A stretch of DNA of 64,000 nucleotides, from NCBI RefSeq assembly GCF_030409325.1, contig NZ_JAUFPR010000001.1, positions 930,001 through 994,000 of the forward strand, read 5' to 3'. Source of the DNA: Mucilaginibacter aquaedulcis. Lineage in GTDB: Bacteria; Bacteroidota; Bacteroidia; Sphingobacteriales; Sphingobacteriaceae. The translations under genes were made by a program, and so were the position numbers. The notes under the pieces are model-generated. The model ran no database searches and was not told the DNA's origin. It saw only the letters and a list, made by a program, of their open reading frames with translations. Shown here piece after piece: positions 4,061-25,129 of this stretch. Each line of letters starts with the position of its first letter. Within the stretch, counting starts at the first letter, position 1.

Positions 4061-5299
4061 ATGATAAAAACATTCCTTTTTTTCCAATGCGCGTTAATAA
4101 CAGTTTTGTGGACAAACACCGCCCGGGCCAACAGGCTTGTTAGTGTAAATCCCGACTCGGTGACAACCCAAACCGGTTCAAAAATAATTACCGGTGCCGA
4201 TCAGATTCCGCTGTATATTGACTATCTTAAAGGAAAAAATATTGGGATGGTTGTAAATCAAACTTCTGTTATCGGTCAAAACCTAACTCCCAGTGTTGAT
4301 ACGCTTTTAAAATCGGGCATAGCCATAAGAAAGATCTTCGGCCCTGAACATGGCTTTAGGGGTGATGCCAGTAATGGCGCCAGTGTAAATGATGCCACTG
4401 ATCCAAAAACAGGCCTGCCGGTTATATCATTATACGGTAATAAACACTACAAACCCACTCCTGAAGACCTGAAAGACCTCGATCTGGTTATATTTGACAT
4501 ACAGGATGTAGGCGCACGTTTTTATACCTATATATCAACCCTGCACTATGTTATGGAAGCTTGTGCCGAAAACAATATAGAACTCATGATACTGGACAGG
4601 CCCAACCCTAACGGCTACCTGATTGACGGCCCGGTGTTAGATACTACTAAAGCTCCACGTTCTTTTGTTGGCATGCATCCTATACCCATAAGCCATGGCA
4701 TGACCATTGCCGAATACGCTCAAATGATCAACGGCGAAGGTTGGTTAAAAGACGGTGTAAAATGCAAGTTAAAGATTATTGATGTAGCTAATTACAAGCA
4801 TGATATGGTTTACAAACTACCTGTAAATCCATCACCCAATTTAAATACCGATCAATCAATTTTGTTGTACCCCAGCGTATGTTTGTTTGAGGGGACAACA
4901 TTAAGCCTGGGCAGGGGCACCTTATTCCCCTTTTTGGAACTTGGGCACCCTTCATTAAAAAGTAAATATTTTTTTTCATTTACACCGGTAAGTATAGCTG
5001 GTATGAGTGAAAACCCGCCGCAAAAAGATCAGTTATGCTATGGTATCGATTTAAAAAGCTACAGTGTAGAGATGATCAGGAAAAAAGGGCGATTAGATCT
5101 GTCATTGCTTTTGCAGCTTTATAAAGCTTTTCCTGATAAAGCTCATTTTTTTAATGCTTATTTTACCAAACTGGCAGGCACCACAGAGCTAAGAAAACAA
5201 ATTGAAGCAGGTAACAGCGAAGCCCAGATACGCCGGAGTTGGGAACCTGGCTTAAATAAGTTTAAAACCATTCGCGCCAAATATTTATTATATCAATAA
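4061..5299 (+). CDS. DUF1343 protein, NamZ-type exo-beta-N-acetylmuramidase
   Basis: 412 residues with a signal peptide (about 1-23, ending near TARAN). The body matches the DUF1343 family: GMVVNQTSV near residue 65, the family hallmark FGPEHGFRGDASNGASV near 93-110, VIFDIQDVGARFYTY near 147-161 and DRPNPNG near 183-189. The characterised member, Bacillus subtilis NamZ, removes N-acetylmuramic acid from the non-reducing end of peptidoglycan fragments, so a periplasmic cell-wall recycling role is likely here. It lies 34 bp upstream of fmt on the same strand. Function is by family, not shown by this sequence. Confidence 0.88.
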   Translation: MIKTFLFFQCALITVLWTNTARANRLVSVNPDSVTTQTGSKIITGADQIPLYIDYLKGKNIGMVVNQTSVIGQNLTPSVDTLLKSGIAIRKIFGPEHGFRGDASNGASVNDATDPKTGLPVISLYGNKHYKPTPEDLKDLDLVIFDIQDVGARFYTYISTLHYVMEACAENNIELMILDRPNPNGYLIDGPVLDTTKAPRSFVGMHPIPISHGMTIAEYAQMINGEGWLKDGVKCKLKIIDVANYKHDMVYKLPVNPSPNLNTDQSILLYPSVCLFEGTTLSLGRGTLFPFLELGHPSLKSKYFFSFTPVSIAGMSENPPQKDQLCYGIDLKSYSVEMIRKKGRLDLSLLLQLYKAFPDKAHFFNAYFTKLAGTTELRKQIEAGNSEAQIRRSWEPGLNKFKTIRAKYLLYQ

Positions 5300-6393: not shown

Positions 6394-7191
6394 ATGGCAA
6401 GCTACAGCGACAGAATTACCCTTTTAAAAAACGAGATACAACCCTTACGTGAGCAATTAATACAACACGAACTTTATAAAAACATTAACTCGCTTGATGA
6501 GCTTACCGTTTTTATGGATCATCATGTGTTTGCCGTTTGGGATTTTATGTCGCTGTTAAAATCGCTTCAGCAAAGATTAACTTGTACTGTTACACCCTGG
6601 ATGCCTACCGGTAATGCTAATACCCGCTATCTCATCAACGAAATTGTTACCGGCGAGGAAAGCGATATAGACGAAGCAGGCAACCGCACCAGCCATTTTG
6701 AGTTGTACCTGCGCGCCATGCAGCAGGCCGGCAGCGAAGCCATAGCTATCAATAACCTGTTCAATGAGCTTAACTTTGGTAAACATATTGATGAAGCCCT
6801 CATCATTGCCGAGATTCCTTTAAGCGCTCGCAACTTTGTGCAGCACACCTTTGAGGTAATTGAAAGCAGCAAAAACCACGTACAGGCAGCGGTATTTACC
6901 TTTGGCCGTGAGGATCTGATACCTGATATGTTTGTGAGCATTGTAAAAGAACTGAGCAAACAACTGCCAGGGAAGGTTGATATTTTATTATACTACCTGG
7001 AGCGCCATATTGAAGTTGATGGCGACCACCATTCACAATTGGCTTACCAAATGACTGCTGAACTTTGCGGCGACGATGACACGAAATGGCAGGAAGCAAC
7101 CAATGCGGTAAAAGAGGCCTTGCAAACACGTATTGCTTTGTGGGATGGTATACTGGCTGCTATAAAAACTCCGGTATCTTTGCACTTATAA
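6394..7191 (+). CDS. DUF3050 family protein (heme-oxygenase-like fold)
   Basis: 265 residues from the ATG at 6394. An in-frame TTG 24 bp upstream lies inside the -7 promoter box and is rejected. The protein matches DUF3050: [20 protein letters not shown] near 38-57, the all-helical body, and a paired-His segment [13 protein letters not shown] near 216-228. The family is predicted to share the heme-oxygenase/TENA helical fold, and the conserved His and Glu residues suggest metal binding, but no reaction is established. It stands alone, convergent with the PabC-like gene. Confidence 0.85.
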
Positions 7192-10392: not shown

Positions 10393-11718
10393 TTATGGGA
10401 ACTTAACGCCGTTATAGCTCGATACGTTAGCCAACGGAATAGTGGCGCTATATTGTTTGTTGATGGCTTTTATAAATTCATTAGCTACAATGGCATATCC
10501 ACGAGGAGTTAAATGCACCCCATCCAGTGAAAATATCCCCCCGCTGATATAGGCCGAACTCAGGTTTACACCATCAACTGTAAGGCCATGTGCTTTAATG
10601 TCATTCAAAAAAGTAAAGGCATCAAAAACAGCTAAACCTTTGGATGCCGCTACAGATTTGATGGTAGTATTGTACGAACTTACATAATCCTGAGTAAGCG
10701 CAACTTCATTTTGATCAAGCACATATTGATTATCTATAGGTGTATAAGGTGTTAACCCATAAGGCAACGGGCCAGCAGGCGTATTTACCGGCTGCCCTAT
10801 CATACTTGTCGGAAACGTAAGTACAACCAGGTCGCTTGCAGTTGCAACCCGGGGGGCGTAAGCAGTACCCGAAACAAGCGCATTAACATATAAGGCTTTA
10901 GCGGCCGGGTTTGCCTTTTGTACAGCAGCAAGAATAGCACCCACAGTTACCGTATTAAAATAAGGCACAGAAGTAACATCAGGAATGGTTGCCACTGCAC
11001 CTTTTTGTCCGTTTGCGGTTAGCTTACCGATAGAAAGGGTATACAATTGCGTAAACAATGTTTTATCCGTTAGCACATCCCCTGCTCCGCCGCTTGTGGC
11101 ATATAGCAGCGCATCGTTATTACCCAGCCAATCGGTAAAAAAAGTAAATGGCTTGGCCGTTACAAAATCAAGATAAGCCGTAGTATTTGTTGGCGAATCA
11201 TTAGGCAGCAGCCTTTCAAAATAACCATTCAAATTACCGTATGGCGCATAGGTTATTTGCTGCAGTTTGATTCCCGGTACACCATAATTATTGATGTCGC
11301 CAGTATATTTGGTATACAGTATCACATTCCCAAACCCCGGAACGGCTATCTGCCCGCGTACGGCCAAATTAGTTTTAACCTGCTCTGTTTTAGGGGTTCC
11401 ATCGGCGTTAAAACCGGCCAGCCTCAAATAGCCGGAGCCATTTGATTGCTCTGCTGTGAATAAAGGCTGTGTAAACGTCCCTCCACCCACTTTTTGCATT
11501 TGCGCGGCAATAATGCTGGGGTATGAGTTTAACTGCCCTTCGCGATATAATCCTCCATCGGCATAGCCGGCTGTAAGGGAATTACCCACCGATATATACC
11601 TCGAAAAATCTGCCGTACCGCGTGACGGTTTCGGTGTATTGATGTCGGTTTTGCAGGCCGCAAAGCTCAATAAGCCCGCGGCTAAAAATATATGTAAGTA
11701 TGATTTATAAGTTTTCAT
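10393..11718 (-). CDS. GDSL/SGNH-family hydrolase, lipoprotein
   Basis: 441 residues with a lipoprotein signal peptide; the lipobox SFAAC puts the lipidated Cys at residue 22. SGNH blocks are visible: the nucleophile Ser in YISVGNSLTAGYADGG (about 41-56, GNSL for GDSL), the oxyanion Asn in WLGNNDALLY (about 197-206), and the DxxH pair in DGVHLTPRGYAIVANEF near the C-terminus (about 398-414). Such enzymes hydrolyse lipid esters or O-acyl groups. It lies 18 bp downstream of the FadL-type porin gene, so a surface or periplasmic lipase/esterase feeding fatty acids to that porin is the most coherent reading; a carbohydrate deacetylase is an alternative. Confidence 0.85.
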   Translation of the reverse strand: MKTYKSYLHIFLAAGLLSFAACKTDINTPKPSRGTADFSRYISVGNSLTAGYADGGLYREGQLNSYPSIIAAQMQKVGGGTFTQPLFTAEQSNGSGYLRLAGFNADGTPKTEQVKTNLAVRGQIAVPGFGNVILYTKYTGDINNYGVPGIKLQQITYAPYGNLNGYFERLLPNDSPTNTTAYLDFVTAKPFTFFTDWLGNNDALLYATSGGAGDVLTDKTLFTQLYTLSIGKLTANGQKGAVATIPDVTSVPYFNTVTVGAILAAVQKANPAAKALYVNALVSGTAYAPRVATASDLVVLTFPTSMIGQPVNTPAGPLPYGLTPYTPIDNQYVLDQNEVALTQDYVSSYNTTIKSVAASKGLAVFDAFTFLNDIKAHGLTVDGVNLSSAYISGGIFSLDGVHLTPRGYAIVANEFIKAINKQYSATIPLANVSSYNGVKFP

Positions 11719-11736: not shown

Positions 11737-12960
11737 TTACCAGTGATAAGCAAGTGACAAGCCGGGGATATAAACATTGGTTTTAAATGTACCTGATAAC
11801 TGCGACTCGATATTTGTTTGCGTGCGCGATATTACCCGCTCATACTCAAATGAAACATCCAGATCAAGGTGTTTGGCCAGCGCATAACCTATACCGCCGG
11901 TAAAATAGTAGCGGTTGGCATCAGGAGCCTCCGGGGTAACATAACCATCGCGCACGGCAGTAGTGGCGTAACCACCGCCTGCACGTAAAAACAACTTATC
12001 GCTGGCTTTGTACTGGGTACCGGCCCGGTAACTCCATCCGTCTTTATAATTACGGGGCGAGTAAGTATCCTGCAGCGTAGGCGTATTCTGCGCATAATCA
12101 AATCCCAGCACTTTATAAACCGACCAATGGGTAAAGTTCACATCAACAGCAATCGTCCAATCTTTTGCCGGCGAATAGCCAAAGCCGATAGACGATGTTG
12201 AAGGCAGAGGCAGCGTAGTGCTAAAAGTATTTGGCTGCGGAAAATTTGCCTGTATTGATGCAGGAACAGTAAAAATAGCATCACCGCTTTTAACCGTGGT
12301 ATTTACTTTTGAGCGATAATCAAGACCTACGGTAAGGCCTACTTCCGTCTTTAAAAACACGCCCGCGTTCCAGCCAAAGCCGTGTGCGTTCCCTTTCAAT
12401 TCAGCCTGCCCCACATCGCCCGATGCATTTACAAGCGGAATGGCCCGGGTAAGGTCAACCGTACCGTGGTTGTAAACAAAACCACCGCCTACACTTAAAA
12501 AGTCGGCCAGTTTTATACTTATGGTAGGCTGAAAATAGATGGCTTTCAGATCAAGGCTTTCCAATACATATTTACCTGTCCATTGATTGCCCCAGTCCGT
12601 TAAACCACCGAAAGGTGTATAAACGCCTAAACCAAGTTTCCACCACGAGTTTTTAGGGCCCCATACCGCGTAAGCTGTAAAGGGAGTGGCAACCTTATTT
12701 TTAGTACGAAACTGATCTGTAGTACCGCTTGGGTTAAAGTCAGATTTAAAGAATAGCGGGCTGATACCTGCCTGAACAAAATTTTCGGGCAGCATTACCA
12801 CCGCGCCCGGGTTAAACAATACAGATGAACCATCCTGCAATAAGCCGGTTCCGGTGTGCCCCATACCTATCTGTTTCTGTCCGTGAAGGTTAACCTGGAA
12901 ACCCTGGGCAAATACCATAGCAGGTAATATTGCAAACAGCAATAGTAGAAGTTTTTTCAT
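11737..12960 (-). CDS. FadL/OmpP1-family long-chain fatty acid outer-membrane transporter
   Basis: 407 residues with a signal peptide (about 1-18, cut after VFA, then QGFQVNLHG). FadL hallmarks are the N-terminal hatch segment GMGHTGTGLLQDGSSVLFNPGA (the NPGA/NPA motif at about 50-53) and a repeated beta-strand pattern to the C-terminus, which ends LSLAYHW with the aromatic last residue of outer-membrane barrels. FadL proteins take up long-chain fatty acids or other hydrophobic molecules by lateral diffusion. It is the first gene of the operon ending in the GDSL hydrolase and is divergent from the regulator and beta-oxidation genes, which supports a fatty-acid substrate. Confidence 0.9.
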   Translation of the reverse strand: MKKLLLLLFAILPAMVFAQGFQVNLHGQKQIGMGHTGTGLLQDGSSVLFNPGAVVMLPENFVQAGISPLFFKSDFNPSGTTDQFRTKNKVATPFTAYAVWGPKNSWWKLGLGVYTPFGGLTDWGNQWTGKYVLESLDLKAIYFQPTISIKLADFLSVGGGFVYNHGTVDLTRAIPLVNASGDVGQAELKGNAHGFGWNAGVFLKTEVGLTVGLDYRSKVNTTVKSGDAIFTVPASIQANFPQPNTFSTTLPLPSTSSIGFGYSPAKDWTIAVDVNFTHWSVYKVLGFDYAQNTPTLQDTYSPRNYKDGWSYRAGTQYKASDKLFLRAGGGYATTAVRDGYVTPEAPDANRYYFTGGIGYALAKHLDLDVSFEYERVISRTQTNIESQLSGTFKTNVYIPGLSLAYHW

Positions 12961-13025: not shown

Positions 13026-13033
13026 TAAAATTA
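13026..13033 (-). promoter_or_regulatory. Putative -7 box (TAATTTTA) of the fadL-GDSL operon
   Basis: On the minus strand this box starts 15 bp after the T tract of the shared 43-bp element and about 66 bp before the fadL-type ATG. The other lipid promoter has TACTTTTA at 16 bp from its copy, so the spacing is kept. Last base differs from TAnnTTTG. Confidence 0.5.
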
Positions 13034-13048: not shown

Positions 13049-13091
13049 AAAAAAAGGGCTATAATGCGGAGGTATTGGTCAAAAAGTCGGA
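13049..13091 (-). promoter_or_regulatory. 43-bp operator-like element, copy 1 (faces fadL)
   Basis: Read on the minus strand it begins TCCGACTTTTTGACC and ends GCCCTTTTTTT. Bases 13063-13091 match 14118-14146 perfectly (29 bp) in inverted orientation; three mismatches follow, then 11 more identical bases. It lies 88 bp upstream of the FadL-type gene. Probable binding site of the AraC-type protein encoded between the copies, which is inference. Confidence 0.7.
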
Positions 13092-13186
13092 TAAAAACTT
13101 TAATCAATACTTTATTTTTAATAAAATAGTATTAAATATTATTACTGTTTAATTAACACTTTTAATAAATTAAGGGAATAAAATTA

Positions 13187-13194
13187 TACCTTTC
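13187..13194 (+). promoter_or_regulatory. Possible -7 box (TACCTTTC) of the araC-family gene
   Basis: Matches TAnnTTTG except for the last base and ends 5 bp before the ATG at 13200, so the transcript may be leaderless. Confidence 0.35.
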
Positions 13195-13199
13195 GTTAC

Positions 13200-14108
13200 A
13201 TGAGCAAAAATCCCAGATATGTGAGCAAAAAGATCGCTCAACTGAGCCTGTCAAAATTTGCCGACCTCTATGCCGACAAACTGATAGGTCCTGATTTTTT
13301 TATAGCCGACGAAAAACAACTACTGAGTTTAAGTGAGTTTCCATACCGCTCAGACGGATATATTATAGGTATTTGCACCCGTGGCACCGCCCGCGTTGAG
13401 GCCAACTTACAGGTGTATGAAGCCAAACCCGATGCTATGCTGCTGGCAACGCCGTTCCATATTTTAAGGATCTATGAAAGCAGTGACGATTTCCTGTGCC
13501 GGTTCATTGTTTTCTCCAAGGCTTTTTTAACCGAGAACAATGTTAACAGCCACTTTCTGGAATCATTCAGTTATTTCAAAAGCGCATCGCTGCCGGTAAT
13601 ATACCCCAGTCATGAAGATGCTAAAATGCTGTTGGATATTTACCTGTTGATGCAGCAAAAGATGGCCCGGGAAACTCATCCTTATCGTATGGAAATATCC
13701 AGGAGTATGCTAATCACTATGCTTTACGAGGTAGAATCAATATACGAAAAGCAACACGTTATTGTAAAAGGCAAACAAACCCGCAAACAGGAATTGAATG
13801 TATTGTTCCAGGATCTGGTTTTTCATCATTATAAGGAACACCGCAACGTACAGTTTTATGCCGATTCATTGTACGTTTCACCCAAACACCTCACCGAAAC
13901 CATTAAGGAAGTAACCGGCCGAACCGCAGGTGAATGGATTGACGATGCCGTAGTATTGGAAGCCAAAGTACTGCTCCGTAATAAAGAAATAAGCATCGCC
14001 CATGTAGCCGAAGAGATCCATTTTCCTGATCAATCCTCTTTTGGCAAGTATTTTAAAAAGCATACCGGCATGTCTCCCTCTGATTATAGGGTGGTTACCA
14101 CGCATTGA
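13200..14108 (+). CDS. AraC-family regulator, candidate controller of the lipid locus
   Basis: 302 residues. The N-terminal half (about 1-180) is a ligand/dimerisation domain without a motif I can name. The C-terminal AraC/XylS DNA-binding domain (about 200-300) has the two helix-turn-helix units, the first around FYADSLYVSPKHLTETIKEVTG and the second around SIAHVAEEIHFPDQSSFGKYFKKHTGMSPSDYR, the family signature. The gene sits between divergent fatty-acid operons and is bracketed by two copies of a 43-bp element (13049-13091, 14118-14160), each just upstream of a conserved promoter box. Control of both operons in response to a fatty acid or acyl-CoA is the likely role; effector and sign of regulation are unknown. 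An internal GTG at 13221 is an alternative start. Confidence 0.88.
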   Translation: MSKNPRYVSKKIAQLSLSKFADLYADKLIGPDFFIADEKQLLSLSEFPYRSDGYIIGICTRGTARVEANLQVYEAKPDAMLLATPFHILRIYESSDDFLCRFIVFSKAFLTENNVNSHFLESFSYFKSASLPVIYPSHEDAKMLLDIYLLMQQKMARETHPYRMEISRSMLITMLYEVESIYEKQHVIVKGKQTRKQELNVLFQDLVFHHYKEHRNVQFYADSLYVSPKHLTETIKEVTGRTAGEWIDDAVVLEAKVLLRNKEISIAHVAEEIHFPDQSSFGKYFKKHTGMSPSDYRVVTTH

Positions 14109-14117
14109 TATTTCTTT

Positions 14118-14160
14118 TCCGACTTTTTGACCAATACCTCCGCATTGCTGCCCTTTTTTT
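14118..14160 (+). promoter_or_regulatory. 43-bp operator-like element, copy 2 (faces beta-oxidation genes)
   Basis: Begins TCCGACTTTTTGACC 9 bp after the regulator's stop and ends GCCCTTTTTTT. It matches copy 1 at 40 of 43 positions when copy 1 is read on the minus strand. Two C-plus-T-run motifs within it (C14123 and C14153) are 30 bp apart, about three helical turns, which might be paired half-sites. Confidence 0.7.
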
Positions 14161-14176: not shown

Positions 14177-14184
14177 TACTTTTA
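14177..14184 (+). promoter_or_regulatory. Putative -7 box (TACTTTTA) of the beta-oxidation operon
   Basis: Starts 16 bp after the T tract of operator copy 2, mirroring the fadL side (15 bp). It would give a leader of about 125 nt before the acyl-CoA dehydrogenase ATG at 14316. Confidence 0.5.
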
Positions 14185-14315: not shown

Positions 14316-16112
14316 ATGAGTGAGATCGAATCAATAAAAGCCATCAAAGGGGGTGAGTTTCTGATCAGGGAAACTCAGGCAGATAGTGTTTTTATTCCGG
14401 AAGAATGGAACGAGGAGCAGTTGATGATCGCAGAAACATGTACCAATTTCCTCGCTCAAAATGTGGTACCCAATTTAACCCGTATAGACGAGCAGGAAGA
14501 AGGATTGATGCCTCACCTGATGGAAGAAGCCGGCGCGCTTGGTCTGCTCAGTATCTCTATTCCCGAACAATACGGCGGCTTTGGTAAAGATTTTAAAACC
14601 TCTATGCTGGTTACCGAAAAGCTGGGTGCGGGTAATTCATTCTCTGTGGCATTTTCTGCTCACACAGGTATAGGAACCCTGCCCATTTTATATTACGGTA
14701 ACGACGCTCAGAAAGAAAAATATATCCCTAAACTGGCAAGCGGCGAATGGAAAGGCGCATACTGCCTAACCGAACCGGGAGCCGGGTCTGATGCCAACTC
14801 GGGCAAGGCCCGGGCAAAACTCTCTGCCGATGGTAAGTATTACCTGCTTACAGGTCAAAAAATGTGGATCACCAATGCAGGCTTTGCTGATGTTTTCACC
14901 GTATTTGCCAAAATAGATGATGATGAAAACCTGAGTGCTTTCATTGTTGAAAAAGATTTTGAAGGATTATCATTAAATACCGAAGAACATAAAATGGGTA
15001 TCAAAGGCAGTTCAACCCGCCAGGTATTCTTTAATGATTGCAAAGTGCCGGTAGAAAATTTACTATCTGAAAGGCAGAACGGTTTCAAAATTGCCGTCAA
15101 TATTTTAAATCTTGGCCGTATAAAATTGGGGGGCGCCACCATTGGGGCCAGCAAAGAAGTTATTACATCGGCCATTCGCTATGCCAACGAGCGCGAGCAG
15201 TTTGGCAGGCCAATTTCAAAATACGGTGCTATCCGTTATAAACTGGCGCAGCAAGCTATTCGTACTTATGCTTCGGAAGCAGCCATATACCGTGCCAGCC
15301 AAAATATGGAGGAAGCTACCGAAATGTACGAAGCATCGGGCCTCGACCCTATCAAGGCAAAATTAAAAGGGACCGAACAGTTTGCCATTGAAGCTGCCAT
15401 AATCAAAGTACATGCATCCGAAACGTTGGATTATGTGGTTGACGAAGGCGTACAGATTTACGGTGGAATGGGTTACAGCGCCGAAGCACCGATGGACCGA
15501 GCCTACCGCGACTCACGCATCAACCGGATATTTGAAGGAACTAACGAAATTAACCGGATGCTTACTGTTGATATGATGCTGAAACGTGCCCTTAAAGGCG
15601 AACTCGATTTGATGGGCCCGGCCCAAAAAGTGGCCGGTGAGCTGATGAGCGTACCCGATTTTGGCGGTGCCGATGAAGAAGGCTTATTTATCAAAGAGAA
15701 AAAATATATAGCAGGCTTCAAGAAAGCTATCCTGATGGTAGCGGGAGCAGCTGTACAAAAACTCATGACACAGTTAGGTAAGGAACAGGAAGTGCTGATG
15801 TACCTGGCCGACATGCTGATAGAGCTTTACGTGAGCGAATCATTACAACTGCGTGTAGAAAAACTCGTTGGCCTGAAAGGCGAGGAAGCCGTTAAAGAAA
15901 AGCTTGACATGATGCATGTTTACATTAACGATGCTGCCGTAAAAATTGCCAACGCGGGCCGCGAGGCTATCAATTCATTTGCCGATGGCGACGAGCGCCG
16001 TATGATGTTAATGGGCCTTAAACGCTTTACTAAAACTGAAGATATCAATACCACACAGGCCCGCAGAAACATCGCGGCCAAATTAATTGAAGCAAATAAA
16101 TACTGCTATTAA
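14316..16112 (+). CDS. Acyl-CoA dehydrogenase, long (VLCAD-like) form
   Basis: 598 residues, longer than the roughly 380 of ordinary acyl-CoA dehydrogenases because of a C-terminal extension from about 430, as in mitochondrial VLCAD/ACAD9. It oxidises acyl-CoA to trans-2-enoyl-CoA with FAD and passes electrons to ETF. Visible: the FAD/substrate signature CLTEPGAGSDANSG (about 151-164), MWITNAGFADVFTVFAKI (about 184-201), QIYGGMGYSAEAPMDRAYRD (about 378-397) and the catalytic Glu in IFEGTNEINR (about 402-411). First gene of the rightward operon, with etfB and etfA next. The long form suggests long-chain substrates. Confidence 0.94.
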   Translation: MSEIESIKAIKGGEFLIRETQADSVFIPEEWNEEQLMIAETCTNFLAQNVVPNLTRIDEQEEGLMPHLMEEAGALGLLSISIPEQYGGFGKDFKTSMLVTEKLGAGNSFSVAFSAHTGIGTLPILYYGNDAQKEKYIPKLASGEWKGAYCLTEPGAGSDANSGKARAKLSADGKYYLLTGQKMWITNAGFADVFTVFAKIDDDENLSAFIVEKDFEGLSLNTEEHKMGIKGSSTRQVFFNDCKVPVENLLSERQNGFKIAVNILNLGRIKLGGATIGASKEVITSAIRYANEREQFGRPISKYGAIRYKLAQQAIRTYASEAAIYRASQNMEEATEMYEASGLDPIKAKLKGTEQFAIEAAIIKVHASETLDYVVDEGVQIYGGMGYSAEAPMDRAYRDSRINRIFEGTNEINRMLTVDMMLKRALKGELDLMGPAQKVAGELMSVPDFGGADEEGLFIKEKKYIAGFKKAILMVAGAAVQKLMTQLGKEQEVLMYLADMLIELYVSESLQLRVEKLVGLKGEEAVKEKLDMMHVYINDAAVKIANAGREAINSFADGDERRMMLMGLKRFTKTEDINTTQARRNIAAKLIEANKYCY

Positions 16113-16230: not shown

Positions 16231-16318
16231 AAAAAACAACCCGGCAATTTCTTAATCAACCAAAATTTATAAACCAAATAAAATGGTCTCTCTTTTCGGG
16301 AGATTCAGAGGGGGCTAC

Positions 16319-17062
16319 ATGAAAATATTAGTGTGTATAAGCCAGGTGCCTGACACCAGCACCAAAATTGTACTGAAAGACGACAACACCGCGATCAATA
16401 ACCAGGGTACAACTTATATTGTTAACCCATATGACGAATGGTATGCTCTGGTGTGTGCGCTTGAACTCAAAGAGAGCGGCACAGCCAGCGATATTCACCT
16501 TATAACCGTTGGTAAAGCAGATGTTGAACCAGTGATCCGCAAGGCGCTGGCCTTGGGCGGCGATGAGGCCATCCGTATAGATGCTGATAGTAATGACCCT
16601 TTCCAAACGGCCACCTATATTGCCGAATATGCTAAATCCGTAAGTTATGACCTCATTTTGTGCGGCAAGGAATCCATCGATTATAACAATGGCGCAGTAG
16701 GTGCTATGCTTGCCGGTCTGCTGGATATTGATTACATAGGTTTTGCAACTGATATTCAGATAAACGGCAGCAGCGTAATTGTAAAGCGAGAAATTGAAGG
16801 CGGCGAAGAAACAGATGCTTGTAGCCTCCCGGTAGTTATCGCCTGTCAAAAAGGTGTTGCCGAAGCCCGTATCCCTAATATGAGGGGTATCATGGCTGCG
16901 CGTACCCGCCCGCTTAAAGCGGTTACACCTGTAGCTGTTGATCCGGTAACTGAGATTTTGGCTTATGAATTACCCCCAGCAAAAGCAGGCATTAAACTGA
17001 TCGAGGCCGATAATATGGACGAATTGGTAGCCCTGCTGCATACCGAAGCCAAGGTATTATAA
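16319..17062 (+). CDS. etfB: Electron transfer flavoprotein, beta subunit
   Basis: 247 residues from the ATG at 16319, preceded by a purine-rich AGAGGGGG at 9 bp. An upstream in-frame ATG at 16283 would add 12 residues not found in the family, which begins MKILVCISQVPDT. The subunit binds AMP and holds the alpha subunit's FAD; the heterodimer carries electrons from acyl-CoA dehydrogenase to the ETF:quinone oxidoreductase (not in this window). The ETF-beta signature lies near VKREIEGGEETDACSLPVV and the following IPNMRGIMAARTRPL (about 160-200). It is followed by etfA after 31 bp. Confidence 0.95.
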   Translation: MKILVCISQVPDTSTKIVLKDDNTAINNQGTTYIVNPYDEWYALVCALELKESGTASDIHLITVGKADVEPVIRKALALGGDEAIRIDADSNDPFQTATYIAEYAKSVSYDLILCGKESIDYNNGAVGAMLAGLLDIDYIGFATDIQINGSSVIVKREIEGGEETDACSLPVVIACQKGVAEARIPNMRGIMAARTRPLKAVTPVAVDPVTEILAYELPPAKAGIKLIEADNMDELVALLHTEAKVL

Positions 17063-17093
17063 AAACCCTTTTTGTAAACTAAAACCTATAAAA

Positions 17094-18071
17094 ATGTCTG
17101 TAATAGTACTGGTAGAACATACCGAAGGAAGTATAAAAAAGAAAAGTCTGGAAGCTGTACAGTATGCTACCTCCATCGCTCAAAAAACGGGCACTACGGT
17201 AAGCGCTATTGTTTTGGGAACATTGCCCAATGATGAAATGGAAAACCTTGGCCAATACGGCGCTCATAAAGTGTTGAATGTACCCGATGCCCGTTTAAAT
17301 GAGTTACATCCCCGGGCATATACAACCGCGTTACTGACAGCGGCCCAACAGGAAGCCAGCAAGATTATCATTATGCTGCATGATATTAATGGTCGCGCAG
17401 TAGCCCCACGGGTAGCTGGAAAACTCAAAGCAGGTTTGGTAGCCGGTGCATTATCCTACCCTGACCTGGATAAGGGATTTGTAATTAAAAAGGCCGTTTT
17501 CTCGGGCAAGGCATTTGCGCATGTAAATATTACGAGCGATGTAAAAGTGATCACCCTGATACCAAATACATTTCAGCTGAATAAAGGTGAAGGCAAAGCA
17601 TCTATAGAAAAACTGGATGTAAATTTTAGCGATAATGACTTTGGCATCACGGTTAAGGAAGTAAATAAAATAAAAGGTGAGATACCATTGGCTGATGCTC
17701 AACTGGTAGTATCCGGCGGTCGCGGACTTAAAGGACCGGAAAATTGGGGTATCCTGGAAGATCTGGCAAAAGAACTCGGTGCGGCCACTGCCTGCTCGCG
17801 CCCGGTGGCCGATGCTCACTGGCGGCCGCACCATGAGCATGTTGGGCAAACTGGTGGTACCGTACGGCCCGATCTGTATATAGCAGTCGGAATATCAGGA
17901 GCCATTCAGCACTTGGCGGGTGTTAACGGTTCAAAAAATATTGTGGTGATTAATAAAGATCCTGAAGCCCCGTTTTTTAAGGCTGCCAATTACGGTGTTG
18001 TTGGCGATGCCCTGGAGGTTTTACCAAAGCTTACCGAGGCAGTAAAAAAATTCAGACAGAACCATAAATAA
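17094..18071 (+). CDS. etfA: Electron transfer flavoprotein, alpha subunit
   Basis: 325 residues. The N-terminal domain (about 1-190) packs against EtfB. The C-terminal FAD-binding domain (about 200-322) shows VVSGGRGLKGPENW, then SRPVADAHWRPHHEHVGQTG and the ETF-alpha signature LYIAVGISGAIQHLAGV (about 261-277), and VINKDPEAPFFKAANYGVVGD. With EtfB and the acyl-CoA dehydrogenase in the same operon, its role in beta-oxidation electron transfer is clear. It is followed 7 bp later by the thioesterase gene. Confidence 0.96.
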   Translation: MSVIVLVEHTEGSIKKKSLEAVQYATSIAQKTGTTVSAIVLGTLPNDEMENLGQYGAHKVLNVPDARLNELHPRAYTTALLTAAQQEASKIIIMLHDINGRAVAPRVAGKLKAGLVAGALSYPDLDKGFVIKKAVFSGKAFAHVNITSDVKVITLIPNTFQLNKGEGKASIEKLDVNFSDNDFGITVKEVNKIKGEIPLADAQLVVSGGRGLKGPENWGILEDLAKELGAATACSRPVADAHWRPHHEHVGQTGGTVRPDLYIAVGISGAIQHLAGVNGSKNIVVINKDPEAPFFKAANYGVVGDALEVLPKLTEAVKKFRQNHK

Positions 18072-18078
18072 TAAAACG

Positions 18079-18528
18079 ATGAATGTTTTTTATGAGGGAC
18101 AAGTATTATGGTCGCAGATAGATGCTAACAAGCACATGCGCCACTCGGCCTATGCTGATCTTGGCGCGCAGGCCCGTTTAAATATGCTCGAAAGTTTGGG
18201 ACTGAAACCTACCAGTCTTTTTGGATATAAAATTGGCCCGGTTCTTTTTAAAGAAGAATTGAACTATCTGCGCGAGATAGAACTTGGCGATCATGTACAA
18301 ATAACCTGTGAAGTGGCACGCTCGCGCCCCGATGGTTCACGGTGGACAATCAGGCACGAGGTGTATCGCAGCGATGGGGTAAAGGCCGCCATTATTATGG
18401 CGCATGGAGCCTGGATAGATATGGAAAAACGCAAACTTGCCATATTACCCACAGCATTGAGCCGCCTATTTATGCTGGCCCCCCGTAGTGAAGATTATAT
18501 GGAAGAACTAAAAACAATCCACAACTAA
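18079..18528 (+). CDS. Acyl-CoA thioesterase, 4HBT hotdog family
   Basis: 149 residues, a single hotdog domain. The segment WSQIDANKHMRHSAYADLGAQARLNML (about 11-37) contains the Asp-x-x-x-His-Met pattern typical of 4-hydroxybenzoyl-CoA thioesterase and YbgC-type enzymes, with Asp15 as probable catalytic residue. Placed between etfA (7 bp upstream) and the acyl-CoA-binding protein gene (7 bp downstream), it may release CoA from stalled or excess acyl-CoA intermediates. The actual substrate is not known. Confidence 0.85.
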   Translation: MNVFYEGQVLWSQIDANKHMRHSAYADLGAQARLNMLESLGLKPTSLFGYKIGPVLFKEELNYLREIELGDHVQITCEVARSRPDGSRWTIRHEVYRSDGVKAAIIMAHGAWIDMEKRKLAILPTALSRLFMLAPRSEDYMEELKTIHN

Positions 18529-18535
18529 ATTTAAA

Positions 18536-18793
18536 ATGACTGACCAGATAACAACCTTTGAAACCGCCGTTGCTCAAAGCAAGCAACTCCCTTCCCGCCC
18601 TGATAACGAAACCCTGCTGCGCCTGTACAGCTTGTTCAAGCAAGCTACAGAAGGCGATATCAACCCAGAAAACCAGCCCGCCATGTTTGATTTTGTAGCT
18701 AAGGCCAAATACGATGCATGGCTGAAGCTCAAAGGCATGCAAGCTACCGATGCCCGGCAGCAATATATTGATCTGGTACAAGGCCTGTCCTGA
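18536..18793 (+). CDS. Acyl-CoA-binding protein (ACBP)
   Basis: 85 residues, the size of a free-standing ACBP four-helix bundle. The family pattern is clear: FETAVAQSKQLPSRPDNETLLRLYSLFKQATEGD (about 6-39) matches the acyl-CoA site with its conserved LYSLFKQAT-G-D segment, and KAKYDAWLKLKGMQATDARQQYI (about 54-76) carries the conserved KYDAW-KGM-A. It buffers long-chain acyl-CoA in the cytoplasm. ACBP is universal in eukaryotes but patchy in bacteria, so its place in this operon is notable. Confidence 0.92.
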   Translation: MTDQITTFETAVAQSKQLPSRPDNETLLRLYSLFKQATEGDINPENQPAMFDFVAKAKYDAWLKLKGMQATDARQQYIDLVQGLS

Positions 18794-19122
18794 TCATGCT
18801 TTGCAAGTGAAACAAAATTATGTACATCAACGGTTGCTTCTCTTCAATGCTCCAACAAAAAATACTTATCTTTAATAAACCAACTTATAAATAATACAAA
18901 CTGAAAGTTTCCGAAATATTGACAAATGTTTCCGCCATTTTAACCTTTGTTCAGCTTCGGTAAAAAAGATATTTGTTAACTATAAACCAATACTAAATTA
19001 TTTTTCAACCTGTCGTGTAATTCTGTTTGCCCCTGCAAAGCGGTACAACTGTAGTTCATATACTGCTGGCTTGTATGTGCTAAAGGCTTATTTGAATTAT
19101 TTGGCAATAGCAAGCAAAAACC
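18794..19122. other. Non-coding gap between ACBP and the DUF2147 gene
   Basis: 329 bp, AT-rich, with no open frame of coding character and no clear hairpin. TATCTTTA near 18869 is a one-mismatch -7 box and could mark an internal promoter for the DUF2147-fadN part of the run. AACCAATAC near 18986 recalls a piece of the 43-bp operator, but nine bases is within chance. Confidence 0.4.
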
Positions 19123-19575
19123 ATGTTATCACCTAAAAAACATTTCGTTCGCTTATTATTAATAATACTTACCACATTATCTGTAAATATTACGGCAAGG
19201 GCACAAACAGATAAAATTGAAGGGGTATGGTATAATGATATTAAAAACGCCAAGATCCAGATCGCTAAAGGCGCTGATGGTAAGTTCAACGGAAAAATAA
19301 TATGGCTTAAGGAACCATTAAAAGATGGCAAACCCAAAACCGACGAGAAAAACAAAGACGAAAAACTGCGGAGCAGGCCCATTATAGGTATGGCGATCCT
19401 CTCGGGCTTTGTACCTGATGGCGAGAATAAATATACCGACGGCAAAATTTATGATCCTAAAAACGGCAAAACCTACTCCTGCAATATCACACAAAATGGC
19501 AAAACGTTATCCATTCGCGGGTATGTGGGCATATCGCTTTTAGGTCGTACCACCACCTGGGAACGGGCAGAATAA
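19123..19575 (+). CDS. DUF2147 domain protein, secreted
   Basis: 150 residues with a signal peptide (about 1-27, cut near ARAQ). The rest matches DUF2147: IEGVWYNDIKNAKIQIAK, GKFNGKIIWLKEP, and the end ILSGF-DGKIYDPKNGKTYSCNI-LSIRGYVGISLLGRTTTW. The family is a small beta-rich, lipocalin-like fold exported to the envelope, with no established reaction. Its position inside a fatty-acid operon, 39 bp before fadN, suggests a link to envelope lipids, but that is only context. Confidence 0.85.
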   Translation: MLSPKKHFVRLLLIILTTLSVNITARAQTDKIEGVWYNDIKNAKIQIAKGADGKFNGKIIWLKEPLKDGKPKTDEKNKDEKLRSRPIIGMAILSGFVPDGENKYTDGKIYDPKNGKTYSCNITQNGKTLSIRGYVGISLLGRTTTWERAE

Positions 19576-19614: not shown

Positions 19615-21996
19615 ATGGATGCTAAACGAATTATAAAAAAGGTAGCTGTACTTGGCTCGGGTGTAATGGGCAGCAGGATCGCGTGTCACTTTGCCAACAT
19701 CGGGGTGCAGGTATTATTACTTGATATTGTACCCAAAGATGCTCCAGCCGGCGATAAAAAAGCCCGTAATAAAATAGTCAACGATGCGCTTGATTTTGCT
19801 TTAAAATCAAACCCGTCCCCTATCTATCTTAAATCTTTCGCCCGGCGTATAGCTACCGGCAACTTTGAGGATGATATGCCTAAAATTACTGAATGCGACT
19901 GGGTGATTGAGGTGGTAGTTGAACGCCTGGAGATAAAACAACAGGTATTTGAAACAGTTGAAAAATATCGTAAACCGGGCACACTCATCACGTCAAACAC
20001 ATCTGGCATTCCCATTCATTTAATGGCAGGTGGTCGCAGTGATGATTTTAAAAAGCACTTTTGCGGCAGCCACTTCTTTAATCCACCACGTTATTTAAAA
20101 CTTTTAGAGATCATCCCCACTAATGATACCTTGCCGGAGGTAGTTGATTTCCTGATGAATTATGGCGAACAATTCTTAGGCAAAACTACCGTATTGGCTA
20201 AAGATACTCCTGCCTTTATCGGCAACCGCATCGGCGTTTTCAGCATTATGAGTGTGCTGCATTATGTTGAAAAAACCGGTATGACGGTAGAAGAAGTTGA
20301 TAAACTGACCGGACCGGTTATCGGTCACCCCAAATCGGCTACCTTCCGTACCAATGATGTGGTAGGACTGGATACCATGGTACACGTTGCCAACGGACTC
20401 AGCAAAAACGTTCCGGATGATGAAGCTAAGGAACTATTTGCCATTCCTGAATTTGTGAATGGTATGCTTAAAAATAATTGGCTGGGCAGCAAAACGGGCC
20501 AGGGTTTTTATAAGAAAGAAAAAGTTGATGGCGTAAACCAATTCTTCGCGCTCGACCTCAAAACGCTGGAATATAAGCCATCGCAAAAAGTAAAATTTCC
20601 ATCATTAGATATTACCAAAACGGTTGACAGCTTAAAGAAACGATTAAAGATCCTTTTTGCCGCCAAAGACAAAGCCGGCGATTTTTACCGCACCACGTTT
20701 TACCAGCTGTTTGCCTATGCCAGCAACTGTATCCCCGAAATTGCGGATGAGCTTTATAAAATAGATGCCGCGGTAAACGCGGGCTTCGGTTGGGAAATGG
20801 GCCCTTTTGAAAAATGGGATGCCCTTGGCGTTGCCGATACCGTAAAGGCGATGGAAGCCATGGGCAATAAACCTGCTCAATGGGTATACGATATGCTGGC
20901 CTCTGATGCCGATAGTTTTTACAAGATAACTAATGGCAAACGCCAGTATTATGATATCGTTTCCAAAACTCACAAGGTAATTCCGGGTACAGAAAATTTC
21001 ATTCTCTTAAGCAATATCCGTGAGGCAAATACCATCTGGAAAAACAGTGGTACTACCATTACCGATATTGGCGATGGCATCATTAACCTGGAGTTCCACA
21101 CCAAAATGAACACTATCGGTGGTGATGTGATTGAGGGTCTGAACAAAGCCATCAGCCTCGCCGAAAAGAGCTATAAAGGCCTGGTGATCTCCAACGAGGG
21201 AGCCAATTTCAGCGCTGGCGCCAACGTGGGCATGATATTCATGATGGCCGTTGAGCAGGAATTTGATGAACTCAACGTGGTGATCAAGGCTTTTCAAAAT
21301 GCCATGATGCGCATTCGTTATTCATCAATCCCGGTGGTGGCCGCACCCCATCAAATGGCATTGGGCGGTGGTTGCGAGCTATGCCTGCATGCCGACAAAG
21401 TAGTTGCCCATGCCGAGCTGTATATGGGCCTCGTGGAGTTTGGCGTCGGCCTCATCCCTGGCGGTGGTGGCACCAAGGAGTTTGCCCTCCGCCTGTCAGA
21501 TGAGCTGCAGGACGGTGATATTGAATTAAATAACTTCCGCGACCGGTTTTTAACCATCGGCCAGGCAAAGGTTTCCACCTCGGCTTATGAAGCGTTTGAA
21601 TATGGCTATCTCAAAAAAGGGAGAGATGTTGTGGTGGTATCACAAAACCGTTTACTTGCTGAGGCTAAACAACACTGCCTGCAATTGGCTAATGAAGGTT
21701 ATGTACAACCTGTTCAGCGTACAGATATCAGGGTGTTGGGCAAGCAGGCATTAGGCCTGGGTTATGTTGGGGCCAATACCATGTATAGTGGCAACTACAT
21801 CAGCGAGCACGATGTAAAGATCTCACAAAAATTGGCTTACGTACTTGCTGGCGGCGATTTGTCGCAACCGTCATTGGTGAGTGAAGATTATTTGCTGAGT
21901 TTGGAGCGCGAAGCCTTTGTTGCCCTTTGCACCGAACGTAAAACGCTTGAACGCATACAATCAATTATAACCGGTGGCAAGGTATTGAGGAATTAA
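19615..21996 (+). CDS. fadN: 3-hydroxyacyl-CoA dehydrogenase / enoyl-CoA hydratase, FadN type
   Basis: 793 residues catalysing hydration of 2-enoyl-CoA and NAD-linked oxidation of 3-hydroxyacyl-CoA. Domain order is dehydrogenase first: Rossmann motif AVLGSGVMGSRIACHFA (about 11-27), then GSHFFNPPRYLKLLEII (about 146-162) and the C-terminal dehydrogenase part to about 450. The crotonase domain follows, with catalytic Glu residues in LGGGCELCLHAD (about 583-594) and LVEFGVGLIPGGGGTKEF (about 604-621). This order is the reverse of E. coli FadB and matches Bacillus FadN (789 residues). A repeat hairpin separates it from fadA. Confidence 0.94.
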   Translation: MDAKRIIKKVAVLGSGVMGSRIACHFANIGVQVLLLDIVPKDAPAGDKKARNKIVNDALDFALKSNPSPIYLKSFARRIATGNFEDDMPKITECDWVIEVVVERLEIKQQVFETVEKYRKPGTLITSNTSGIPIHLMAGGRSDDFKKHFCGSHFFNPPRYLKLLEIIPTNDTLPEVVDFLMNYGEQFLGKTTVLAKDTPAFIGNRIGVFSIMSVLHYVEKTGMTVEEVDKLTGPVIGHPKSATFRTNDVVGLDTMVHVANGLSKNVPDDEAKELFAIPEFVNGMLKNNWLGSKTGQGFYKKEKVDGVNQFFALDLKTLEYKPSQKVKFPSLDITKTVDSLKKRLKILFAAKDKAGDFYRTTFYQLFAYASNCIPEIADELYKIDAAVNAGFGWEMGPFEKWDALGVADTVKAMEAMGNKPAQWVYDMLASDADSFYKITNGKRQYYDIVSKTHKVIPGTENFILLSNIREANTIWKNSGTTITDIGDGIINLEFHTKMNTIGGDVIEGLNKAISLAEKSYKGLVISNEGANFSAGANVGMIFMMAVEQEFDELNVVIKAFQNAMMRIRYSSIPVVAAPHQMALGGGCELCLHADKVVAHAELYMGLVEFGVGLIPGGGGTKEFALRLSDELQDGDIELNNFRDRFLTIGQAKVSTSAYEAFEYGYLKKGRDVVVVSQNRLLAEAKQHCLQLANEGYVQPVQRTDIRVLGKQALGLGYVGANTMYSGNYISEHDVKISQKLAYVLAGGDLSQPSLVSEDYLLSLEREAFVALCTERKTLERIQSIITGGKVLRN

Positions 21997-22000
21997 AAAG

Positions 22001-22090
22001 AGAATCAAGAAATAAGAACCAGGAAACAAGAAAATAAAAATGATTGGGAGCGCTTTCCCTCTTGATTCTTGACTCTCGGTTCTTGACTCT
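22001..22090. repeat. Heptamer array, AGARNCA family, two facing arms between fadN and fadA
   Basis: Five left units (AGAATCA, AGAAATA, AGAACCA, GGAAACA, AGAAAAT; 22001-22035) face five complementary units (TCCCTCT, TGATTCT, TGACTCT, CGGTTCT, TGACTCT; 22056-22090), all at exact 7-bp spacing. The arms can pair imperfectly over 35 bp. Same family as 33431-33530 and 63184-63239. Confidence 0.75.
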
Positions 22091-22110
22091 AATAACTAAA
22101 CATAAAAGAC

Positions 22111-23286
22111 ATGAACGCATATATAGTGGCTGGAAGCCGCAGCGCAGTGGGAAAAGCAACCCGGGGTGGTTTCAGGTTTACCCGGCCGGATACCCTTGCT
22201 GCTGATGTTATTAAACACTTGCTTACAACTGTACCCAATGTAGATAAGGAACAGATTGATGATGTAATAGTGGGCAATGCCACACCCGAGGCTGAGCAGG
22301 GTTTAAACGTAGCCCGACTTATTTCGCTCATGGCTTTAGATACTGATAAAGTACCCGGCATGACGGTGAACCGATATTGCGCATCTGGTTTGGAAACTAT
22401 AGCCATAGCGTCAGCCAAAATACACAGCGGTATTGCTGATTGTATTATTGCAGGTGGGGTAGAAAGCATGAGCCTGCTGCCTATGGGCGGCTGGCGTATA
22501 GTACCCAATGCTGATGTTGCCCTGGCCCACCCTGATTATTACTGGGGAATGGGTTTAACCGCAGAGGCAGTTGCCAAAGAATATAACATAGGCCGCGAAG
22601 AACAGGATCTGTTTGCCTATAACTCCCACCAAAAAGCTATTAATGCCATAAAAGAAGGCAAATTTAAAGATGAGATAGTTCCCGTTAGCATTACAGAAAC
22701 TTATGTTGACGAAAGCGGCAAAAAAAAGAACAGGGAATTTAAGGTTGATACCGACGAAGGCCCGCGTGCGGATACTTCGCTTGATGCTTTGGCCAAATTG
22801 AAACCGGTGTTTAATGCCAAAGGCGTGGTAACCGCAGGCAATTCATCTCAAACAAGTGATGGGGCAGCGTTTGTTATGGTAGTAAGCGAACGTTTTTTAA
22901 AGGCCAATAATCTTAAACCTATTGCCCGGTTGGTTAATTATGCCGTTGCCGGGGTGCCACCGCGTATCATGGGCATTGGCCCGCTGGTGGCTATCCCTAA
23001 GGTATTGAAACAAGCGGGCATGCAGCAACAGGATATTGACCTGATAGAGCTGAACGAGGCCTTTGCATCACAGTCATTAGCGATAATTAAAGGCCTGGAT
23101 CTTGATCCGGAACGCATCAATGTAAACGGCGGTGCCATAGCGTTGGGGCATCCACTGGGTTGTACAGGTGCCAAACTTTCTGTACAGCTTTTTAATGAAC
23201 TGCAACGCCGCGATAAAAAATACGGTATGGTAACCATGTGCGTAGGCACCGGGCAGGGCGCGGCAGGCATTTTTGAATTATTATAA
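22111..23286 (+). CDS. fadA: Acetyl-CoA C-acyltransferase (3-ketoacyl-CoA thiolase)
   Basis: 391 residues, the standard thiolase length. It cleaves 3-ketoacyl-CoA with CoA to acetyl-CoA and a shortened acyl-CoA. The active-site Cys is in [15 protein letters not shown] (about 87-101), the His in [16 protein letters not shown] (about 340-355), and the second Cys in [17 protein letters not shown] at the C-terminus. With fadN it completes the core spiral. The acyl-CoA ligase gene starts 25 bp after its stop. Confidence 0.96.
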
Positions 23287-23311
23287 CAATTTACTTTTAA
23301 ACTGTAACAAC

Positions 23312-25129
23312 ATGGAAAAAGTGACAAGATTGTTTGATTGCATGAACATTCAGGCCAAAGAGCTTAAGGCAAATTTATTAACTGCCAAGGTAAACGGCAG
23401 CTGGAAGGCCTACAGCACAGCTGAAGTTCATACTATGGTTTATCAGTTAGCTATGTCACTTTTAAACCTGGGTGTTTCGGCCGGTGACGGTACAACAGAG
23501 GGGCGGGATAAGATAGGGCTCATCAGCGCAGGCAGGCCCGAGTGGTTGATCACCGATCTGGCCGTTCAGCAAACCGGGGCCATATTAGTGCCCCTTTATC
23601 CAAATACCAATTGTAAGGAGTTGGAACAAATACTGAAAGAAGCCGAAATAAAATACCTGTTTATAAGCAATAAGGAGTTATGCGACAAAATTCATGAAAT
23701 CAGTGCCAATGTTCCATCGTTAAAAGCTATTTATACATTTGATAATGTTGAGGGCTGTACTAACTGGTCTGAATTATTTAAACCATTACCTCATGATTAT
23801 CAAACCACGTTAGCAACCATAAGCAACACTATAAAAGAAGATACCGTAGCAACCATCATTTATACTTCAGGTACAACCGGTAAGCCTAAAGGCGTAATGC
23901 TTACCCATAAAAACATTCTCAGCAACGTGCTGGCATCGGGCGAGGTGCTTAACAAGATCCCGCTTGAAGAAAAAAAGGCGTTAAGCTTTTTACCGCTCAA
24001 TCACATTTTTGAGAAAACGTGTACCTACATCTATCTTTTCTTTGGTTTCTCTATTTGTTATGCCGAAAGCATGGATACCATTGGCGCCAATATGAAAGAA
24101 ACCAAACCCGATATTTTTACAGCGGTACCGCGCCTGCTTGAAAAGGTATTTGAAAAGATCATGATAGAAGGCCAAAAATTACAGGGCTTTAAACGGAAGG
24201 TGTTCTTCTGGTCGATAAAGGTTGCGGAAGAGTTTGAGATCGGTAAAAGCAACCCCTGGTACAATATTAAACTGGCCATTGCCGATAAATTGGTTTACAG
24301 CAAATGGCGCAATGCTATTGGCGGCAATGTGAGGGCTATCGTTATAGGTAGTTCGGCCTGCCCTATTAAACTTGAAAAGATTTTTACCGCCGCTAAAATG
24401 GTGGTTCTGGAAGGTTATGGGCTTACAGAGACTTCGCCGGTGATAGCCGTTAATCGTTATGAAGAAAGCGGCAGAAAATTTGGCACCGTAGGTCAGCTAT
24501 TGAGCGGAGTAGAAGTGAAAATTGCTGATGATGGCGAAATATTAGTCAAAGGAGATAATATTATGGCGGGTTATTATAAAAACCCTGAAATGACCGCGGA
24601 AGTTATTACCGATGGAGGCTGGTTCCACACAGGCGATATTGGCGAGCTTGACGCAAATGGATTTCTTAAAATAACTGATCGTAAAAAAGAGATCTTCAAA
24701 ACATCTGGAGGAAAATATGTAGCTCCGCTACCTATCGAAAATAAAATGAAAGAGAATTATTTTATTGAACAGATGATGGTAGTTGGTGCCGAAAGAAAAT
24801 TCACCGCGGCGCTTATTGTACCTTCATACACGCATTTAAAACCCTGGTGCATCAAGAACGACATCCCGGTTAATTCGCACCGCGAGATGATAAACGACAG
24901 TAGGGTTGTTGAGCTTTACCAATCAATCATCAACGGTTTTAACCCCGAATTTAACCATGTGGAGCAGGTTAAAAAGGTTACGCTGCTGCCCGATGAATGG
25001 TCGATAGATAGCGGCGAGCTCACACCTACCGGTAAAATGAAACGTAAGGTGATCACAGAAAAATACAAAGGTCAGATTGACAAAATGTACGCCGGCGAAG
25101 AACATGAGAACCCTTCCCTTGTTCATTAA
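23312..25129 (+). CDS. Long-chain fatty acid-CoA ligase
   Basis: 605 residues from the ATG at 23312; an in-frame ATG 39 bp upstream overlaps the end of fadA and would add a non-family tail. It activates fatty acids to acyl-CoA through an acyl-adenylate. Motifs: the P-loop-like [18 protein letters not shown] (about 196-213), the linker [14 protein letters not shown] (about 367-380), [36 protein letters not shown] (about 443-478) with the Asp and Lys of the catalytic hinge. Similar to FadD15/bubblegum-like long-chain ligases in length. It probably acts vectorially on fatty acids entering through the FadL-type porin. Confidence 0.93.

Follow-up and report, generated by a model that had tools for sequence, protein, structure and literature searches.

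A putative AraC-family operator shared by fatty-acid uptake and β-oxidation operons of Mucilaginibacter

The half-sites I1 and I2 of the Escherichia coli araBAD promoter are spaced 21 bp. According to an excerpt of PMC7408454, AraC uses direct-repeat half-sites at araBAD that are centered at -52.5 and overlap the -35 region. In the fatty-acid metabolism of E. coli, FadR serves as the single regulator for fadL, fadE, fadBA, and fadD. Bacteroidota promoters have a -7 element at -12 to -5 with the consensus TANNTTTG, compared with which the -33 element is much less evident (excerpt of PMC6847099). Among the matches listed in the open-licence PMC literature (titles and abstract openings), none describes a fatty-acid regulator in Bacteroidota of the kind considered here. 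Our comparisons support a set of predicted AraC operators that would tie fatty-acid uptake and β-oxidation into one regulon.

The regulator and its neighboring lipid genes

The window, a 64,000-nucleotide stretch of the Mucilaginibacter aquaedulcis genome, encodes an AraC-family regulator of 302 amino acids (13200..14108, + strand), assigned from the Pfam domains HTH_18, HTH_AraC, and AraC_binding and from its predicted fold (mean pLDDT of 82). The C-terminal AraC-type double helix-turn-helix is present (HTH_18, 2.3e-20, 73.1 bits with a cut-off of 33.6; HTH_AraC, 1.4e-11, 44.6 bits with a cut-off of 26.6), as is the N-terminal cupin-like ligand domain (AraC_binding, 22.4 bits with a cut-off of 21.1). 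Pfam gave three matches at E ≤ 0.001, each to an AraC-type model and none to a GntR winged-helix domain. The regulator also falls below the NCBIfam arabinose-regulator model PRK10572 (73.3 bits vs a cut-off of 208). When its predicted fold was searched with Foldseek, ToxT and Rns ranked first, with a query TM of 0.31-0.39 and 9-17% identity, whereas VIA-align ranked the RhaR sensor domain first. Because the two rankings disagree, they leave the ligand a guess; ours would be that the likely signal is a fatty acid or an acyl-CoA.

On one side of araC lies the gene for a FadL/TodX outer-membrane transport protein (11737..12960, - strand; Pfam Toluene_X, 3.6e-56), with the gene for a GDSL lipase-like protein (10393..11718, - strand; Pfam Lipase_GDSL, 4.9e-07) 18 bp behind it in the same direction. 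On the other side, all on the + strand, are genes for an acyl-CoA dehydrogenase (acad, 14316..16112; Pfam, and the NCBIfam FadE model NF058590 at 787 bits vs a cut-off of 600), the electron-transfer flavoprotein (16283..18071, with etfB at 16283-17062 and etfA at 17094-18071; Pfam), and a 4HBT thioesterase and an acyl-CoA-binding protein, ACBP (18079..18793, at 18079-18528 and 18536-18793, respectively; Pfam). Further along the same strand, a gene for a DUF2147 protein (19123..19575; Pfam) precedes a block spanning 19615..25129. This block comprises a fadB-like gene (19615-21996; best NCBIfam model below its cut-off), the thiolase gene fadA (22111-23286; NCBIfam thiolase subfamily TIGR01930 above its cut-off), and a fadD-like acyl-CoA ligase gene (23312-25129; best NCBIfam model below its cut-off); the assignment has a Pfam basis for fadB only and an NCBIfam basis for all three.

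Element copies and promoter geometry

The araC gene is flanked by two arms of 49 nt each (13049-13097 and 14112-14160) that are 90% complementary. A preliminary description of this DNA had reported perfect 29-bp inverted copies at 13063-13091 and 14118-14146, extending to a 40/43 match (29 identical bases, then 3 mismatches, then 11 matching bases), with outward spacers of 15 bp to TAATTTTA on the fadL side and 16 bp to TACTTTTA on the dehydrogenase side. Re-reading the sequence confirmed each of these values. The two-copy account is exact to the base, but it is incomplete, having overlooked a third, diverged copy. As 41-mers, predicted operator copy U (13051..13091, - strand; half-sites 13091-13078 and 13070-13057) reads toward fadL, predicted copy D (14118..14158, + strand; half-sites 14118-14131 and 14139-14152) reads toward the acyl-CoA dehydrogenase operon, and the third predicted copy, T (18910..18950, + strand), which is identical to U at 27/41 bases, reads toward DUF2147-fadB-fadA-fadD. 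All three read outward to lipid genes, namely fadL-GDSL, acad-etfB-etfA-4HBT-ACBP, and DUF2147-fadB-fadA-fadD.

A 25-bp core allowing up to three mismatches had two matches in the window and none in 100 shuffles of it; in the whole 6,129,368-base genome, it matched at two places, both in the window. An 18-bp looser pattern allowing one mismatch found three places in the genome (U, D, and T; reversed control, 1), the added place being 18917-18934, within copy T. With two mismatches allowed, the same pattern gave 15 places, compared with 25 in the reversed control. Since the control gives more, matches looser than one mismatch are background, and 12 of the 15 places were dropped as such. A genome scan for the element had been proposed in the preliminary description; at the one-mismatch stringency, it revealed no copies at unrelated places. 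Near-identical inverted copies flanking a single gene might suggest a mobile cassette that contains araC and is bounded by the two copies. However, the genome has three copies only at that stringency; copy T is diverged, lies before another operon, and is in direct orientation to D; and no araC segment with both copies was found at unrelated places in the genome.

Each of U, D, and T consists of two direct half-sites, CCGnnnTnnnGnC, 21 bp apart, although in the second half the G is not strict. In a comparison of 31 distinct U/D pairs with 11 distinct T copies, the bases that vary little or not at all are CCG at 2-4, TGAC at 11-14, AA at 16-17, CCG at 23-25, T at 29, and CCTT at 35-38. Overlaid at a shift of 21, the halves have CCG, T, mostly G, and C in common. 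Shift 21 had the top self-match z-score among shifts 8-30 in the U, D, T, and Pedobacter classes (the last described below) taken separately. Next in most classes came shifts 29-30, at which the T runs coincide. Column shuffles did as well as shift 21 in 9 (U), 1 (D), 1 (T), and 0 (Pedobacter) of 1000 cases.

The element is followed by a -7-like box at a near-fixed offset. In the predicted fadL-GDSL promoter, TAATTTTA (13026..13033, - strand) lies 17 bp past the 41-mer U; in the predicted acad promoter, TACTTTTA (14177..14184, + strand) lies 18 bp past the 41-mer D; and GATATTTG (18968..18975, + strand) follows copy T at offset 17. A strict -7 box was found at offset 17 in 40/40 readable U copies and, among 49 D copies, at offset 18 in 44 and offset 17 in 4. 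Only 3/13 T copies have a strict TANNTTT[AG], at offset 18, but a box with G permitted at the first base occurs at offsets 15-20 in 13/13. If the -7 box is assumed to be at its usual place, the copy U half-sites (element bases 2-14 and 23-35) are predicted to sit at -69 to -57 and -48 to -36, with a center of about -52.5 and the second half-site ending beside the -33 region. Tandem direct half-sites beside the -35 region (here -33) are an AraC/XylS-type feature, which the element displays, at this predicted position, in its shift of 21 and near-fixed box offset. The U and D boxes are without the consensus G at -5, an absence that would fit activator-dependent promoters.

We propose that the 41-bp element is very probably the operator of the AraC protein encoded between U and D, and that binding would switch on fadL-GDSL, the acad operon, and fadB-fadA-fadD together. 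An AraC dimer would occupy both half-sites and, as an activator, contact RNA polymerase at promoters whose -7 boxes are one base off consensus. The same protein could instead bind the element and mainly repress, with release by acyl-CoA, making it FadR-like in effect. E. coli FadR is a repressor released by acyl-CoA (excerpt of PMC9329746), and AraC itself can repress by looping (excerpt of PMC7408454). However, the sites stop short of the -7 box on its upstream side and leave it uncovered, which is an activator position. The distances from U and D to araC given in the next section vary widely, and loop phasing is therefore not kept. We regard a mainly repressing role as unlikely and retain activation by AraC as the preferred reading.

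Ortholog loci and co-occurrence across the genus

In a protein search with AraC, the best 80 of 111 relatives were kept. Fifty of these (L003-L052) are at least 70% identical, with partial matches counted by their own identity, and the other 30 are 29-37% identical. The 50 close loci are mostly titled Mucilaginibacter, with some titled only Bacteroidetes bacterium and four titled Flavipsychrobacter or Chitinophagaceae (L043, L044, L046, and L051). A position-weight scan detected copy U in 40/50 and copy D in 48/50 of these loci, the weak D copies of L034 and L039 being assigned by position; D is also weak in L175 and L176, and T is weak in L202 (score of 16.8). L037 has copy U only, and the 5 kb that follow its araC yielded no β-oxidation gene; the sequence of L045 stops inside araC. 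Loci that keep the regulator also keep the element, and the ortholog comparison called for in the preliminary description yielded no refutation.

The copies track their target genes. Copy U is present in 39/39 loci with fadL beside araC and in 0/5 loci with no fadL match in the 5 kb upstream; this count leaves out 6 of the 50 loci (L035, L037, L043, L049, L051, and L052), in which the region before araC is off the contig or too short, or araC is partial. Copy D precedes acad in most loci, etfB in L015, L036, L039, L042, and L049, the thioesterase gene in L013, and fadB in L043, L044, L046, and L051, its neighbor being whichever of acad, etfB, 4HBT, and fadB comes first after araC. In these last four loci, the AraC ortholog is 70-75% identical (partial in L051), the gene order is araC-fadB-fadA-acad, and the element is kept; they may reflect horizontal transfer. 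In L009, L010, L022, L032, and L034, 0.7-1.4 kb separates araC from copy D, which stays with acad.

Distances were compared in the window and in the 33 loci that have fadL and both copies and in which acad comes next, taking the ends of tblastn matches as gene ends. U lies 86-126 bp from fadL (sd of 11) vs 61-352 bp from araC (sd of 49), and D lies 53-222 bp from acad (sd of 53) vs 13-1432 bp from araC (sd of 366). The copies thus hold their position to the targets and not to araC, from which D can be up to 1.4 kb away, and conservation among the ortholog loci extends to the flanking genes. Together with the three genome copies, this leaves the mobile cassette raised in the preliminary description unsupported and, in our judgment, extremely improbable. 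That description had also suggested that U and D are recombination sites inverting the araC segment, as perfect 29-bp inverted repeats 1 kb apart could be. Yet fadL and araC diverge in 39/39 loci with fadL beside araC, the gene read after araC is co-directional with it in all 38 of those loci where one was read, and loci without fadL lack a copy on one side. With gene orientation constant across these loci, inversion is likewise unsupported, and we give it hardly any credence.

Copy T was present in 27 of the 34 gaps scored before DUF2147/fadB (scores of 16.8 to 54; gaps of 172-700 bp) and missing from 7 (best scores of -22 to -57; gaps of 47-175 bp). Across the scored gaps, copy T looks all-or-none on these sequence scores. 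Four of the 34 gaps come from genomes already counted (L177 = L016, L178 = L017, L198 = L039, and L200 = L042), leaving 25 with T and 5 without. The weight matrix used here includes T copies and so leans toward them; an earlier matrix without T missed several.

Spacer bases 15-21 are equal in U and D in 33/44 loci (the window, 38 named loci, and 5 further loci; L198, L200, L201, and L202 are left out). Among distinct pairs, they are equal in 21/31 vs 11.6 expected by shuffling, a figure that ignores relatedness. Within pairs, base 30 differs in 29/31 and base 31 in 22/31. Given these differing bases, U/D near-identity is not explained by gene conversion acting on the element as a whole; conversion of the core alone may lie behind it.

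Among 100 Mucilaginibacter genomes, including that of the window, 41 have an AraC ortholog (at least 74% identity; two relatives at 41-43% were not counted). The two-half-site pattern (up to one mismatch) occurs in 44 of the 100, comprising 41/41 genomes with araC and 3/59 without it (Fisher p of about 7e-25, uncorrected for relatedness; related genomes share history, which makes the counts non-independent). In total, 109/113 matches lie within 8 kb of araC, and the reversed pattern gave 4 matches in the 100 genomes. Of the three exceptions, G054 has an araC fragment on its motif-bearing contig; in G066, the contig starts 163 bp ahead of the element, and araC would fall outside it; and G094 has a single match, within 12 kb of which no queried gene occurs. 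The 18-bp looser pattern matches 63/100 genomes, and its reversed control also matches many. Because 22 of the 59 AraC-less genomes are among the 63, only the two-half-site pattern discriminates.

These counts bear on whether the element is the operator of another transcription factor encoded elsewhere, with araC a mere passenger in the cluster. An acad ortholog (69%) adjoining fadA occurs in 3 of the 20 AraC-less genomes examined (of 59), so fadA-acad genes can exist without the AraC regulator. However, none of these three genomes has the two-half-site motif (G064, one of them, has two matches to the 18-bp pattern elsewhere in its genome), and the motif follows araC in the proportions given above. 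In addition, tandem direct half-sites are of the AraC type (excerpt of PMC7408454), and in another genus, a related AraC adjoins a related element in 19/19 cases. A separate factor is therefore improbable. Control of both divergent lipid operons by one AraC regulator through the element, as the preliminary description had suggested, is supported at the sequence level: the element is conserved with the regulator, is present only before target operons, and has a fixed promoter geometry, all three as predicted. The predicted regulon of fadL-GDSL and the β-oxidation operon is extended here by a third operator-like copy and by the tandem 21-bp direct repeat.

Pedobacter relatives and comparison with known systems

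Three Pedobacter AraC loci (L077, L078, and L080), whose regulators are 29-31% identical to that of the window, have a related element on the divergent side. The L077 element, at 4499-4539, precedes a gene whose product scores above the cut-off of the NCBIfam model for serine palmitoyltransferase (733 vs 640 bits). The Pedobacter-type element was found in 19 of 301 family genomes, one per genome and all in one genus (control, 0), and is absent from the genome of the window. In 19/19 cases, it lies between the AraC gene and serine palmitoyltransferase, the two proteins being 53-100% and 88-100% identical, respectively, to those of L077. It is followed at offset 18 by TAAAATTG, a box one base off the -7 consensus.

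AraC paralogs (39-44% identical) were also seen at G000:C3:327435-328184 (L163) and at L169, beside a gene that looks nitroreductase-like by eye. After the regulator gene of L169, at 6590-6630, comes a weak element-like sequence (score of 17.3) in which a 21-bp repeat, along with a -7-like box, can be discerned by eye.

A tentative reading, possible rather than probable, is that Bacteroidota have, in one AraC subfamily, a lipid switch of their own. Its sister regulators would share a 21-bp tandem operator grammar, one serving fatty-acid uptake and β-oxidation (Mucilaginibacter and some Chitinophagaceae) and the other serving sphingolipid synthesis (Pedobacter), with acyl-CoA or fatty acid as the signal for both. 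The prediction for the window names the regulator, the sequence of its operator, the spacing of the half-sites, their position at the promoter, and a regulon of three operons. The carry-over of the layout to serine palmitoyltransferase offers a handle on the control of bacterial sphingolipid synthesis.

The Pedobacter AraC system (L077 and L205-L223) shares with that of the window the 41-bp layout, the 21-bp direct repeat, and the -7-like box, but differs in that a single site was found per genome, before a sphingolipid-type operon. ToxT and Rns, two AraC-family proteins whose solved structures contain fatty acids, have the same two-domain fold and rank first in Foldseek; however, they are 9-17% identical to the window's regulator and control other genes. 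E. coli AraC at araBAD is alike in family, in its two direct half-sites, and in the placement of the pair (predicted for the window), which is centered at about -52.5 and touches the -35/-33 region. In contrast, the window system concerns lipid genes and a Bacteroidota promoter type, its regulator is not an arabinose regulator by NCBIfam, and no distant O2-like site was identified in it. FadR belongs to the GntR family and is a repressor with a palindromic operator overlapping -10/+1 (excerpt of PMC9329746), unlike the system predicted here, which nevertheless resembles it in assigning fadL and the β-oxidation genes to a single regulator.
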